Source: Sandaracinus sp.
GTDB lineage: Bacteria > Myxococcota_A > Polyangia > Polyangiales > Houyiibacteriaceae
Reading direction: 5' to 3'
Length of the DNA: 64,000 bases
Assembly (NCBI GenBank): GCA_002699025.1
Contig: PABA01000124.1
Location: forward strand, 1-64,000
The notes beneath the pieces are model-generated. The model worked only from the letters and a program-made list of their open reading frames with translations, had not been told where the DNA came from and searched no databases. Position numbers and translations under genes: made by a program. How positions within the stretch are numbered: position 1 is the stretch's first letter; each line of letters opens with the position of its first letter. Of this stretch, positions 9,319-63,971 are shown piece by piece.

Positions 9319-9335
9319 CCGCAGGGAGGCCACGC

Positions 9336-9548
9336 GACCAGTTGGCGAGACCCGGACGCGCGATCCGCGCAGCAGGGGGAAGGAGACGGCCCCCGCGACC
9401 GTGCGGCGCGGCGCGACCCCTCGGCGAGAGCCGGACGCGGGCTCCGCGCAGCAGGCGGGAAGAGAGGGCGCCGGCGGCCGTCTCCGCGGGGGCGCCGCCT
9501 CTCGGGGAGCCGGAGGCAGGCTCAGCGCAGCAGGAGGAAGGAGACGGC
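9336..9548. repeat. 79-bp tandem repeat including the kinase 3' end
   Basis: A roughly 79-bp unit recurs with anchors (C/A)CGCGCAGCAG at 9365, 9444 and 9523, and a partial tail unit precedes the first. The third unit is the last 25-30 bases of the kinase gene (stop 9522-9524). On the minus strand the gene reads GAVSFLLLR then stop, and the first copy reads GAVSFPLLRGS with no stop because TCA is TCC. The extra copies lie downstream of the gene and are degenerate. Confidence 0.85.
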
Positions 9549-10628
9549 CCCGGCGATGGCGGCCGTGACGAGCCCGAGGCCGAGGACGATCGCCCAGAAG
9601 CGCCGGGGCTCCTCGCGGGCCACGCGCTCGAGGGGCGGCGCCGGGCTCGGGAAGGAGCCGGCGGGCGTGTAGAGACCGTCGGGCGGGATCGAGAAGCGCG
9701 GGGAGTCGCCGCGCTCGAGGCCGACGGCGGCGAGGAAGGCGTCGTTCAGCTCGCGGGGCGTCTGGAAGCGCTGGGCTGGATCCTTGGCGAGGGCGCGCTG
9801 GAAGAAGGCGTCGAGCTCGGCCGGCAGCTCGGGGCGGCGCGCGCTCGCCGGCTCGATGCGCCCCTGGAGGATGGCCCCGAGGAGCTGGCCGTGGTCGGAC
9901 GCGGCGAAGGGGCTCTCGCCCGTGAGCGCTTCGTAGACGATGACGCCGAGCGCGTAGACGTCCGAGCGCGGACCGGTGTTGGCGGCGGAGGCGATCTGCT
10001 CCGGCGCCATGTAGCGGGGCGTGCCGATGACCGTGCCGGTCGCCGTGAGCTTCTTGAGATCCTCGGCGCGCGAGAGGCCGAAGTCGATGAGCTTCACGCT
10101 CACGGCCGCGTCGTCGCGCCGGTGCAGCATGACGTGGTCCGGCTTGAGGTCGCGGTGGATCACGCCGGCCCGATGCGCCGCCTCGAGCGCGTCGCAGACC
10201 GCCGTGAGCACGGGCCCGAAGGCCTCCGGCTCGAGCGCCCCCTTGCGCCGGATGCGCTCGCCGAGCGTCTCCCCCTCGACCAGCTCCATGGCGAGCCAGG
10301 GGACGCCGCCCGGCGCGTGCCCGTAGCCGCGGATGCCCACGATGCCCGGGTGCGAGATCTTGCTGAGGATCTCCGCCTCCCGCGCGAAGCGCTGCCGCGC
10401 CTCCTCCTCGTGCTTGCGCTTGAGCAGCACCTTGAGCGCGACCGGCTGCTCCGTGCGGAGATCCGTGGCGCGATAGACCGCGCCCATGCCCCCCGCGCCG
10501 AGGGCCGCGTCGATGCGGAAGCGATCGCCGAAGAAGGAGCCCGCCGAGAAGGGCGCCATGACGGCGGTCTCCTCCTCCGTCTCCCACGGGTTGGATATGG
10601 GCGCCTCACCCACCACGACCCCGAGCAT
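9522..10628 (-). CDS. Tail-anchored Ser/Thr protein kinase (Hanks type)
   Basis: The 368-residue protein has a complete bacterial Hanks kinase domain: glycine loop GAGGMGAVY (45-52), ATP lysine Lys 66 in VALKVL, catalytic loop HRDLKPDHVM (158-167), DFG (182-184) and APE after GTPRYM. The catalytic-loop Asn (normally KPxN) is His 165, so metal binding may be altered. The domain is followed by a Pro-rich linker and a single C-terminal membrane helix (about 342-366) with no outer domain, so the kinase is tail-anchored and faces the cytoplasm. A shorter start at MAPFSAG (10559) is possible. It lies 38 bp after the large kinase/ATPase gene in the same orientation and may be cotranscribed. Its 3' end is repeated downstream. 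Confidence 0.92.
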   Translation of the reverse strand: MLGVVVGEAPISNPWETEEETAVMAPFSAGSFFGDRFRIDAALGAGGMGAVYRATDLRTEQPVALKVLLKRKHEEEARQRFAREAEILSKISHPGIVGIRGYGHAPGGVPWLAMELVEGETLGERIRRKGALEPEAFGPVLTAVCDALEAAHRAGVIHRDLKPDHVMLHRRDDAAVSVKLIDFGLSRAEDLKKLTATGTVIGTPRYMAPEQIASAANTGPRSDVYALGVIVYEALTGESPFAASDHGQLLGAILQGRIEPASARRPELPAELDAFFQRALAKDPAQRFQTPRELNDAFLAAVGLERGDSPRFSIPPDGLYTPAGSFPSPAPPLERVAREEPRRFWAIVLGLGLVTAAIAGAVSFLLLR

Positions 10629-17351: not shown

Positions 17352-17735
17352 CGCATCGCGACCCCGTCCCAGCGAGCCGAACCCGCCCCGACGCGGCGAA
17401 GCCACCCCACCGCAAGTCGGAGCGCCCCCCACGAACGCGACAAAGTCACCCCACTGCCTCCCAGGCCTCTGCGAAGCGGAGCGCCCCAGCGACGCTGCAG
17501 CGAATCCCGGTGGAGCGCAGGAGCGCTCCGGCCGCGCGAGCGGATGAAGACACGCTGCCGCAGCGGGAGCGCACCGGCCGCGAACGCGGCAGAGCCCGGC
17601 TTCCGCGAAGGGGAGCGCTCCGGCCGCGAACGCGGCGAAGTCACTCACCTGCAAAGAGGAGCCCACCCATCTCTGCCCCGTGACCCGGCCCCACGGAGCC
17701 GCGTTCGTGTACCCATGAAGAACCGACCCGTGTGA

Positions 17736-20918: not shown

Positions 20919-22065
20919 CGCGCTCGCCTTCGCCCTCGGCCTGATCCTCGCTGCCTCCTGCGGGGGCGATGACGACGGGGGAGGCGGCGACGCGGACGGC
21001 GGCGGCGGCGGCCCGGACGCGGGCGGGGAGCGCGACGGCGGGGTCATCGATCCGGAGCCCTGTCGGGTCGCGCTCCCCGTGGACCTCATCTGGGTCGTCG
21101 ACAACTCGAACTCCATGCAGGAGGAGCAGGCGCAGCTCGTCGCGAACTTCCCGGTGCTGATCGAGACGCTCACGAACCCGCCCGACCGCGACGGGGACGG
21201 CGAGCCGGACTTCCCGCCGCTCGACGATCTGCGCGCGGGGATCGTGACGACGGACATGGGGGTCGGCGACAACCCGGGCGTGATCGGCTGCCCGAGCGCG
21301 ACGGGCGACGAGGGGATCTTCGTGAGCGAGAGCCGCTCGGAGGCGGCGGAGTGCGCCGGCTTCGCGCTCGAGGAGCCGAGCTGGCTGCAGTTCGATGGGA
21401 CGAACGGCGAGGCGTTCGAGAGCGAGTTCGCGTGCCTCGCCGAGCTGGGCACGAACGGCTGCGGGCTCGAGCAGCAGCTGGAGGCGTCGCGGGAGGCGCT
21501 GACGACGCATCGGGAGGCGGGGGGCCCGCACGAAGGGTTCTTGCGGAGCGACTCGCTGGTGGCGGTGATCTTCGTGACCGACGAGGACGACTGCTCGGCG
21601 GCGGACGAGTCGATCTTCGACCCCTCGCCGGCGGCGACGAGCGAGCTCGGGCCCCTCGGGACGCGCTGCGCCTTCCACCCGGAGCTGCTGCACCCGACCG
21701 ATCGCTACGTGCGCACGCTGAAGGACCTGGCGCTCGACCGGCGCGGGGACGTCATCGTCGCGGCGATCACCGGGGTGCCGCGGGCGCTGACCGAGGACCC
21801 GCTGGACGTGGACTTCGAGGCGCTGCTCGCGGACGAGCGGATGGAGTACCGGGAGGACGAGACGCGACCGGGGCAGCTGGCGCCGGCGTGCGAGTTCGGC
21901 GGGGTGGGGCGGGCGCCTCCCGCGCGGCGGCTGGTCGAGGTGGTGCGGGAGTTCGCCGAGACCGGGGACGGGCTGCTGGCGAGCATCTGCGAGCCGGACA
22001 TGCGGCCGGCCATCGCGTCGATCGCGGAGCTGGTGGCGGCGCGGCTCTGCGACGCGCCGGAGTAG
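20911..22065 (+). CDS. Lipoprotein with VWA-like domain
   Basis: The 384-residue predicted lipoprotein has a signal peptide with lipobox LAASC (Cys 17) and a Gly/Asp-rich linker (about 18-50). The body opens with PVDLIWVVDNSNSMQEEQAQL, a VWA-type metal-binding DxSxS motif (DNSNS), and later shows LVAVIFVTDEDDCSA, where Thr-Asp could complete the metal site. Paired Cys residues (GCPSA, AECAG, FACLAELGTNGCG, TRCAF, PACEF, ASICEPD, RLCDAPE) suggest disulphides, as expected outside the cytoplasm. Such proteins are abundant in Myxococcota and act in surface adhesion or protein assembly; the ligand is unknown. The gene's final 19 bases and the following 65 bases are repeated once downstream. Confidence 0.88.
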   Translation: MSRALAFALGLILAASCGGDDDGGGGDADGGGGGPDAGGERDGGVIDPEPCRVALPVDLIWVVDNSNSMQEEQAQLVANFPVLIETLTNPPDRDGDGEPDFPPLDDLRAGIVTTDMGVGDNPGVIGCPSATGDEGIFVSESRSEAAECAGFALEEPSWLQFDGTNGEAFESEFACLAELGTNGCGLEQQLEASREALTTHREAGGPHEGFLRSDSLVAVIFVTDEDDCSAADESIFDPSPAATSELGPLGTRCAFHPELLHPTDRYVRTLKDLALDRRGDVIVAAITGVPRALTEDPLDVDFEALLADERMEYREDETRPGQLAPACEFGGVGRAPPARRLVEVVREFAETGDGLLASICEPDMRPAIASIAELVAARLCDAPE

Positions 22066-22215
22066 GGCGCATCCCGGGCGGCTCGTGGTGCGCCGCGGGC
22101 CGGTGTGCCGCGCGCAAGCCGGGCCGGTGCCCTGCGACGCGCCGGAGTAGGACCGCATCCCGCGCGGCTCGTGGTGCGCCGCGGGCCGTTGTGCCGTGCG
22201 CAAGCCGGGCCGGTG
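22047..22215 (+). repeat. 85-bp direct repeat including the lipoprotein gene 3' end
   Basis: The unit 22047-22131 is repeated at 22132-22215 with about six differences. Both copies begin CTGCGACGCGCCGGAGTAG, which is the end of the lipoprotein gene (Cys-Asp-Ala-Pro-Glu-stop) in the first copy and an orphan copy in the second. The shared downstream part includes CGGCTCGTGGTGCGCCGC and GCGCAAGCCGGGCCGGTG. Confidence 0.92.
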
Positions 22216-30734: not shown

Positions 30735-32171
30735 ATGAACCGCGCCTTCTGCGCACCGCTCGCGCTCGTGCTCGTGCTCGCCGGCTGCGGCGGCGACGAC
30801 GACGGTCCGATGACCGAGCCCGGGACCGACGCCGGCATGCCCGCGATCGACGACGCCGGCTCGATGGAGACCGACGAGGACGGCGGCGCGTCGGCCGTCG
30901 ACGCCGCCGCGGCGGAGACGCTCCCGCCCGGCGCCGCATGCGACTGCGACGACGAGTGCGAGGGCACGCCGACGCACCCGGGGCTCTGCGTCCAGGGCAT
31001 CTGCATGACGCGCGCGAGCGCCGCCTGCGCCGAGGCCGGGTCCACCGGCGAGTGCCCGAGCGGCTCGCGCTGCTGGGGCCTCGACGGCTTCGAGGGCGGC
31101 GTCTGCTGGCCCGACTGCGACGCCGTGAGCTGCGCCGGGAGCTGCGACTCCGACGGCTCCTGCGTGCCCGACGAGAGCTCGACCTGCACGGCGTCCTGCA
31201 GCGAGCTCTGTGGCGAGGGCGGCGACGACTGCCCGCCGAACTCGCACCCCGAGGGGGACGGCTGCGTCTGCGACGAAGGCTACGTGGTCAACGCCGACCG
31301 CACCGCCTGCGTGCTCCCCTGCGAGCGCGACGACGAGTGCGCGGGCGAGCTCGTCTGCGGCGACGAGGGCACCTGCGTGGCGCCGCCCTGCACGCCGGGC
31401 TCCTGCGACGCCGGCGAGGTCTGCGCCGAGAGCGGCGCGTGCATCGTCGACATCGGTGAGGCGCCCCCCGGCACGCCGCCGGCGGCCTGCGCCGTCGGGA
31501 GCATGGGCGTGCCCGACTGGCGCTGCACCGAGGACTGCGACGCGCTCGTCGCCTTCGACCCGCGCATGGGCCTCGGCTACGACGACTACCCGCTGAACGG
31601 CGAGACCGCGGCCGACCAGTACCGGTCCTGGATCCGCCGCGACGTGATGATGCTCGTCCGCTACGCCGCCGCCATGACCGCCTGCCAGGGCGGCGAGTGG
31701 CCGTTCGGGAACGGCGGCGCGCTCGGCCTCGGCGACATGAGCGAGGCCGACGGGAGCATCCCCGGCACGCGCGAGGGCAGCCCGGGGCATCCGGCGGGCA
31801 CGCACGTCGACGGCAGCGACATGGACCTCGCGTACTTCCAGACGGGCACCGGCGACAACCGGCTGCGCTCCGTCTGCCCGCACGTGGTCGCCGGGGAGGA
31901 CCAGTACCACTGCACCGGCGCGCCGGACCGCCTGGACCCCTGGCGCACGGCGCTCTTCCTCGGGCACCTGCACGCGAGCCCGGACCTCCGCGTCATCGGC
32001 GTCGACGGCCAGGTGGGCCCGCTGATCGACTCGGCGCTCACGCAGCTCTGCGCCGACGGATGGCTCGAGGGCGGCGTGTGCCGCGGCCACTCGATCACGT
32101 GGGAAGAGACCGACATGGGGCGCGGCTGGTACCGCTTCCACCACCACCACTTCCACATCAGCGTGCGCTGA
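30735..32171 (+). CDS. Lipoprotein with C-terminal LAS-type peptidase-like domain
   Basis: About 478 residues. The signal peptide ends in lipobox LAGC. A Gly/Asp/Ala-rich linker leads to a Cys-rich EGF/laminin-like middle part (about 70-240, many CxxxC and CDxDxxC groups). The C-terminal domain carries THVDGSDMDLAYF (His 357, Asp 362/364) and ends in FHHHHFHISVR (His 469-474). This looks like the HxxGxD ... HxH zinc arrangement of the LAS (MepA/VanX/D,D-carboxypeptidase) metallopeptidases that cut peptidoglycan cross-links. A murein hydrolase role is a plausible inference. GGGGG lies upstream of the ATG. Confidence 0.8.
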   Translation: MNRAFCAPLALVLVLAGCGGDDDGPMTEPGTDAGMPAIDDAGSMETDEDGGASAVDAAAAETLPPGAACDCDDECEGTPTHPGLCVQGICMTRASAACAEAGSTGECPSGSRCWGLDGFEGGVCWPDCDAVSCAGSCDSDGSCVPDESSTCTASCSELCGEGGDDCPPNSHPEGDGCVCDEGYVVNADRTACVLPCERDDECAGELVCGDEGTCVAPPCTPGSCDAGEVCAESGACIVDIGEAPPGTPPAACAVGSMGVPDWRCTEDCDALVAFDPRMGLGYDDYPLNGETAADQYRSWIRRDVMMLVRYAAAMTACQGGEWPFGNGGALGLGDMSEADGSIPGTREGSPGHPAGTHVDGSDMDLAYFQTGTGDNRLRSVCPHVVAGEDQYHCTGAPDRLDPWRTALFLGHLHASPDLRVIGVDGQVGPLIDSALTQLCADGWLEGGVCRGHSITWEETDMGRGWYRFHHHHFHISVR

Positions 32172-32178
32172 GCGCGCG

Positions 32179-32412
32179 CCGTTCTCACAGCCCCGCCCTC
32201 GCCGCTCGCCGAGCGCACGGCCGCACTCCCCGCCGAGCCCTCGGCGGGCGCCGAGCCGTTCTCACAGCCCCCGCCCTCGCCGCTTGCCGAGCGCACGGCC
32301 GCACTCCCCGCCGAGCCCTCGGCGGGCGCCGAGCCCGCGCCGTTCTCACAGCCCCGCCCTCGCCGCTCGCCGAGCGCACGGCCGCACACCCCGCCGAGCC
32401 CTCGGGGCCCAC
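32179..32412. repeat. Triple 77-84-bp tandem repeat with hairpin potential
   Basis: Three copies begin GTTCTCACAG at 32181, 32258 and 32342 and share the following 60 bases (CCGCCGAG, CTCGGCGG segments). Each carries inverted repeats such as CCGCCGAG-CC-CTCGGCGG. They fill the space between the lipoprotein and flotillin genes, which converge. Confidence 0.92.
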
Positions 32413-55660: not shown

Positions 55661-55729
55661 CGACACGAGCTTGGGGGCCGGCCCGCGTGCTCCGCAAGGG
55701 CGCGCGCGCCGATCGCCGGGCTCGCCCCG

Positions 55730-55951
55730 CTCGGGGTCGCGCCGGCTGCGGCTGCGGGATGCCGTGGAACGCGCCCCCGCCCTCGAGGATCTTCCGCGCC
55801 CTACTCAGGGTCGCGCCGGCTGCGGCTGCGGGATGCCGTGGAACGCGCCCCCGCCCTCGAGGATCTTCCGCGCCCCACTCAGGGTCGCGCCGGCTGCTGC
55901 TGCGTGATGCAGTGGAACGCGCCCCCGCCCTCGAGGATCTTCCGCGCCCCG
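55730..55951. repeat. 74-bp tandem repeat: agmatine deiminase 3' end in three copies
   Basis: Copies begin at 55730, 55804 and 55878 (period 74). The third is the real 3' end of the agmatine deiminase gene and encodes (minus strand) ARKILEGGGAFHCITQQQPARP-type sequence split over the coding end. The first and second read HGIPQPQPARP, so the catalytic Cys codon TGC is GGC in both. Copy 2 keeps the TGA stop; in copy 1 TGA is CGA. Confidence 0.93.
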
Positions 55952-56832
55952 AGCCCGCGCACGCGCCGCTCGGGGTAGAGCGCCGCCAGCGCCTCCACGG
56001 CCTCCGCGTCCGCGTCCACGCCGTAAGTCGGGACGAGCACCTGCCCGTTCGCCAGGTAGTAGTTGCAGTAGCTCGCCGGCAGGAGCGTGCCCTCCGCCCC
56101 CACCACGGCCCCCGGCGAGGGCAGCGCGTGCACCTTCAGGCCCGCGGCCTCGAGCTGCCCGAGCAGGCGCCGCAGCGTCTCCCCGTTGGGGTCGCCGTCG
56201 ACCGGCGCCATGGCCACCGCCTCCCCGGGACGGAGGAAGCGCGCGAGCGTGTCGATGTGCCCGTCCGTGTGGTCGTTCTCGAGCTGCCCCTCGAGCCAGA
56301 TCACCCGCTCCACGCCGAAGGCCGCCTCGAGGCGCGCCGTCACGTCGACGCCCGGGTTCCGCCGCTCGAGGCAGTCGCGCGTCGTCATCAGCGCGCCGGC
56401 TCCGTCGAGCTCCACGCCGCCCCCCTCGAGGACGAGCGCATGCCGCTCCACGCGCACGTCGAGCGCCGCCGCGATCCGCTCCGCGAGGTCCTCGTCGCCG
56501 GCCATGCGGTACTTCCCGCCCCAGCCGTCGAAGCGGAAGACGAGCGCCACCGGCTCCTCATCCCGCCAGCCGAAGATCGCCCCCGTGTCGCGCGTCCAGG
56601 CGTCCCCGTAGGCCATGCGCCGCACGCGCACGCCCTCCCCGAGCGCCGGCGCCTGAACGCCCGGCGCCACGAGCAGCTCCACCGGCTCGGTCTCGGCGAT
56701 GGCCCGCGCGAACGCCGCGATCTCCGCGCGCGCCCCCGCGAGGTCGACCCACTCGTCCTCCCGGTAGGGCCAGGCCATCCAGCAGGCGGCATGCGGCCCC
56801 GTCTCGGCCGGCACGTGGAGCGGCGCGCTCAT
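55879..56832 (-). CDS. Agmatine deiminase (peptidylarginine-deiminase family)
   Basis: The 317-residue guanidine-modifying enzyme hydrolyses agmatine to N-carbamoylputrescine. Family features are WMAWPYREDEW, AWTRDTGAIFG, EGGGVELDG, NDHTDGHIDTLARF (catalytic His 192), PASYCNYYLANGQVLVPTYG and the catalytic Cys 308 in FHCITQQQP near the C-terminus. The start is 10 bp after the upstream gene. The ATG has no Shine-Dalgarno sequence. Its last 25 codons are the third unit of a tandem repeat that continues beyond the stop. Confidence 0.94.
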   Translation of the reverse strand: MSAPLHVPAETGPHAACWMAWPYREDEWVDLAGARAEIAAFARAIAETEPVELLVAPGVQAPALGEGVRVRRMAYGDAWTRDTGAIFGWRDEEPVALVFRFDGWGGKYRMAGDEDLAERIAAALDVRVERHALVLEGGGVELDGAGALMTTRDCLERRNPGVDVTARLEAAFGVERVIWLEGQLENDHTDGHIDTLARFLRPGEAVAMAPVDGDPNGETLRRLLGQLEAAGLKVHALPSPGAVVGAEGTLLPASYCNYYLANGQVLVPTYGVDADAEAVEALAALYPERRVRGLGARKILEGGGAFHCITQQQPARP

Positions 56833-63683: not shown

Positions 63684-63847
63684 GAGTCCTGCGGACACCG
63701 GGAGTCCTGCGGACGCCGGGGAGTCCTGCGGACGCCGGGAGTCCTGCGGACGCCGGGAGTCCTGCGGACGCCGGGAGTCCTGCGGACACCGGGGAGTCCT
63801 GCGGGCACCGGGAGTCCTGCGGACGCCGAGGAGTCCTGCGGACACCT
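63684..63847. repeat. 18-bp tandem array (about nine units)
   Basis: GAGTCCTGCGGACGCCGG-type units follow one another with 18-20 bp spacing from 63684 to 63847, with small substitutions. There are no spacers, so it is not a CRISPR array. The surrounding 63626-64000 holds no supported gene. Confidence 0.9.
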
Positions 63848-63971
63848 GGGCCTTCGCGTGGGCTCGGGGTCGGGCGGGCGTCACGCGGCGCGGGCGGCGA
63901 AAACCGCGTGATCTCGCATGGCTGGGCGGCCGCAAGGGGTCAGCCCGGCCGGGCGAGAGTCCTTCGGAGCG

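Follow-up and report, generated by a model that had tools for sequence, protein, structure and literature searches.

The window, the whole 64,000-nt stretch of Sandaracinus sp. DNA that was analysed (GenBank assembly GCA_002699025.1, contig PABA01000124.1, positions 1–64,000), carries on its minus strand a gene of the agmatine deiminase/PAD_porph family, the 3′ end of which lies in an array of three head-to-tail 74-bp units (period 74, 3.1 copies, 95% matches). The features of the locus are:

55879–56832, minus strand: agmatine deiminase/PAD_porph-family gene, intact; 317 amino acids from the ATG at 56832; catalytic Cys308
55877–55950, minus strand: U1, the in-gene unit; encodes GARKILEGGGAFHCITQQQPARP, then TGA GT
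55803–55876, minus strand: U2, the first post-stop copy; encodes FHGIPQPQPARP; three substitutions relative to U1
55729–55802, minus strand: U3, the second post-stop copy; the three substitutions of U2 and three of its own (position 1, G>A; positions 70 and 74, both T>C)
55723–55728, minus strand: 6-bp GGGGCG remnant; matches the first bases of the unit and adjoins U3

As judged from its sequence, membership of the protein in the PAD_porph/agmatine deiminase family is firm, with a match to PF04371 (PAD_porph) over positions 2–321 of 321 (E = 1.6e-90, 304 bits) and PDB matches to the agmatine deiminases 3h7c and 2jer; its closest protein relatives are 65–69% identical. The substrate is less certain, since the scores against the NCBIfam agmatine deiminase models fall under their curated cut-offs (TIGR03380, 208.7 vs 381.8 bits; NF010070, 211 vs 483). 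The C-terminal catalytic Cys motif, GGGxxHC, is present (the gene reads GGGAFHCITQQQP), and the number 308 given to this Cys in a preliminary description of the DNA is correct for a start at 56832. Among relatives with a readable gene end the Cys is kept in 102 of 102, using a search pattern that left the Cys position free. Translation ends at the TGA of U1 and both U2 and U3 lie behind the gene's own stop, so the enzyme product should be intact. Elsewhere in the genome there is a speA-type arginine decarboxylase and, on another contig (G000:C85:443-1294, L248), an aguB-type gene, which from our reading of the family we take to encode N-carbamoylputrescine amidase and which shares 76% identity with the gene that follows aguA in the relative L003; this gene set fits an agmatine route to putrescine. 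In the relatives L003 and L006 aguB starts directly behind aguA; in the present genome aguA is parted from aguB and the repeat occupies the space behind aguA.

Alignment recovered the three copies of the gene 3′ end as exact 74-bp units. U1 takes in the gene's final 72 nt with the TGA. Three sites set U2 apart from it: a T>G at unit position 40 that turns a Cys codon (TGC) into Gly (GGC), an A>C at 46 that turns Thr (ACG) into Pro (CCG), and an A>C at 53 that turns Gln (CAG) into Pro (CCG). Both extra copies thus lack the catalytic Cys, and the preliminary reading of FHGIPQPQPARP in U2 and U3 where the gene has FHCITQQQPARP was correct; in U3 the change at position 70 also turns the TGA into CGA and removes the stop. 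The proposal that the extra units are more alike to each other than to the gene holds for the coding core, where U2 and U3 are identical (unit positions 2–69), and not for the raw count over the full 74 bp (three differences for U1–U2, three for U2–U3). The repeat identity of 71/74 at a single lag is far beyond chance, and the alignment of the gene end with the downstream DNA scores 63, while none of 818 shuffled controls reaches 18. GGGGCG is present at both ends of the array. No other copy of the unit was found in the same genome, which argues against a dispersed REP-like repeat, and that candidate was rejected.

The three units and their order are established directly, as is the derived state of U2 and U3 relative to the conserved protein: the Cys and the residues around it are what is conserved, so that U2 and U3 go back to a common decayed ancestor. 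The earlier suggestion that a decayed copy was itself duplicated is borne out by the three derived changes that U2 and U3 have in common and by the Cys in all readable relatives. A downstream copy was seen in 0 of the 102 relatives read. The history is very probably one of neutral, short-homology-mediated tandem duplication of the gene 3′ end, with post-stop copies that have no function. The unit would have been duplicated by slippage between GGGGCG tracts 74 bp apart, the first within the coding end and the second immediately behind the stop; since U1 retains the TGA, the product was kept. Relieved of coding constraint, the post-stop copy would then have gained the T>G and the two A>C changes that replace Cys with Gly, Thr with Pro and Gln with Pro, before being duplicated again into U2 and U3. 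We infer the mechanism (slippage), the timing and the lack of function; the GGGGCG remnant is the probable microhomology at the original duplication junction, and six shared bases are weak evidence for one particular mechanism. Five of the six substitutions in the units are A/T to G/C.

Tandem duplication mediated by short repeats, through slippage or illegitimate recombination, is documented in bacteria (PMC4169377; PMC2884548). The array resembles the de novo duplications of penA, a beta-lactamase gene, in that a short segment flanked by short direct repeats is repeated head to tail; the penA duplications lie within the coding region, are selected and revert, whereas here the extra copies are post-stop and diverged (PMC4169377). 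Its tandem units of at least 20 bp are also like those of bacterial minisatellites or small variable segments, many of which are ascribed to replication slippage at short repeats, but here the unit includes the last part of a conserved enzyme's coding sequence, and coding constraint maintains one of the units (PMC2884548). The open-access literature yielded no account of such a pattern in Sandaracinus or the myxobacteria.

A survey of 1.19 of the 9.24 Mb of the genome (about 13%, window included), using Tandem Repeats Finder for arrays and a home-made codon-usage caller for genes, in which starts are uncertain, returned 120 arrays with a period of at least 40 bp (101 per Mb). Array density was 46 per Mb in the genome G034 (10.3 Mb, one contig) and 21–75 per Mb in four family members, for which the samples were smaller. 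In the surveyed DNA, arrays spanned the 3′ end of a gene in 16 cases and the 5′ end in one (binomial p = 2.7e-4), a directly observed excess of 3′ over 5′ arrays that G034 repeats in small numbers (four vs zero; pooled, 20 stop-spanning vs 1 start-spanning arrays, p = 2e-5). Random placement, under a null that ignores depletion inside genes, expects about 18.5 arrays at each type of gene end; against this expectation the counts of 16 and 1 indicate that stops are neither a barrier nor a hot spot and that starts are avoided. An enrichment of arrays at 3′ ends was accordingly rejected, the 3′ count being close to random placement and the 5′ ends depleted. This asymmetry holds robustly where an array covers the start itself and less so for those close by, with the 5′ count rising from one to nine when arrays within 30 bp of the called start are included. 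The other arrays in the window that cover a stop, all with periods in the range of 78–86 bp, are:

9333–9556: array following a protein kinase gene (Pkinase)
22047–22215: array
32161–32405: array

Arrays inside genes had a period divisible by three in 29 of 29 cases, a rule not seen in the 3′-end and intergenic arrays of the 1.19-Mb survey. When gene ends were aligned directly with the adjoining DNA, a copy of the coding end was present behind the stop in 9 of 818 genes and, mirrored at starts, in 1 of 827 (Fisher p = 0.011; shuffles gave 0 at the same score), so that in about 1% of genes the stop is followed by part of the gene's own coding end, vs 0.1% at starts. Such a distribution corresponds to frequent tandem duplication with selective filtering, the duplications being kept in frame inside genes, little tolerated at starts and freely tolerated past stops. 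The present case is clear but ordinary, 3′-end duplications being common in this GC-rich bacterium.

Two further gene ends were noted individually. At L193:14294-14476 the last ~84 nt of a sigma-54 activator gene (Fis-type HTH), through the stop, are copied once behind the gene, with a few substitutions and two small indels relative to the gene end. At L122:6281-10030, 52 nt of the coding end of an SNF2 helicase gene are copied post-stop with seven differences.

The extra copies at eight gene ends were compared with their genes, where polarity at gene ends other than the present one assumes that the in-gene copy is ancestral. A/T>G/C changes numbered 25 at 104 A/T sites and G/C>A/T changes 10 at 293 G/C sites; one gene end (L224) gives about half of the changes, and an earlier count with it roughly subtracted was still significant. 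Codon positions 1 and 2 account for all 25 A/T>G/C changes, and position 3 for half of the G/C>A/T changes. Gene GC content at codon positions 1, 2 and 3 is 75, 50 and 96%, and noncoding DNA has 75%. As read from these comparisons, the extra copies are drifting from the codon-position pattern towards the composition of noncoding DNA, gaining G/C mostly where the protein had forced A/T. The changes TGC>GGC, ACG>CCG and CAG>CCG are changes of this general G/C drift in untranslated copies. The preliminary description thus had the unit order and the re-duplication right, and missed that the pattern extends to many genes and that the Cys loss belongs to a general drift.

Three other explanations were weighed. 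An artefact, in which the assembler expanded a single real unit, might be suspected in an assembly of 238 contigs with repeats at many contig ends, but the copies are each marked by differences of their own, junction bases among them, unlike a simple mis-expansion. Since the copies differ from one another in this way and the single-contig genome G034 shows the same class of 3′-end array, we regard an artefact as improbable. Slightly more improbable still is a functional 3′ element, with the units serving as a terminator, RNA stabiliser or protein-binding array. Many arrays do lie at or just past stops, as such a role would have it, but their number is close to random placement and they vary in sequence and period. 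No terminator was found at the array, its folding is no better than that of shuffles (z = +0.96), and sixteen 3′-end units fold at a mean z of 0.12 with no excess, so a terminator or structured RNA was rejected. Programmed variation, whether by gene conversion from a silent cassette or from the template of a diversity-generating retroelement, is the least credible of the three: a silent copy does adjoin the active gene end and exchange could yield an inactive enzyme, but the silent copies encode only the version without Cys, none of the relatives read has the arrangement, and the substitutions (T/G, A/C, A/C) are not adenine-restricted on either reading, the wrong pattern for a retroelement of this kind, which was rejected.

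Under neutral duplication, the single case is a tidy example of why 3′-end tandem duplications persist, with the product unchanged while the extra copies decay. U1 and U2 are identical over the 39 nt before the Cys codon and over a 21-nt block after their last difference. Slippage or crossover in the 39-nt block would put Gly at position 308, and in the 21-nt block the Cys would be kept; the preliminary warning that recombination would inactivate the gene is therefore plausible for an exchange in the first block and not for one in the second. As a class, post-stop copies let a sequence under constraint be set against its unconstrained counterpart in one genome, a paired comparison relevant to how GC stays so high in bacteria of this sort, and they show where a gene could be inactivated by exchange. 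Only tentatively, we propose that short tandem duplications arise so often in this myxobacterial-type genome that about 1% of the genes are followed by a decaying, untranslated copy of their own coding end, that the paired copies may serve as a built-in control for measuring constraint on coding sequence and bias in substitution at a genomic GC content of 74%, and that gene-to-copy exchange may be a recurrent route to inactivation.

Other repeats were observed in the same DNA. A dispersed family of 46-bp repeats (GGAGCGCTCC...CGCGGCC), often tandem and at contig ends, occurs in L121, L113, L124, L122 and L193, with no matches in samples of three relatives. Within the window, a 46-bp array at 17519–17662 looks similar to this family, and an 18-bp tandem array (GAGTCCTGCGGACGCCGG, about 8.7 copies) lies near the window end at 63684–63850.
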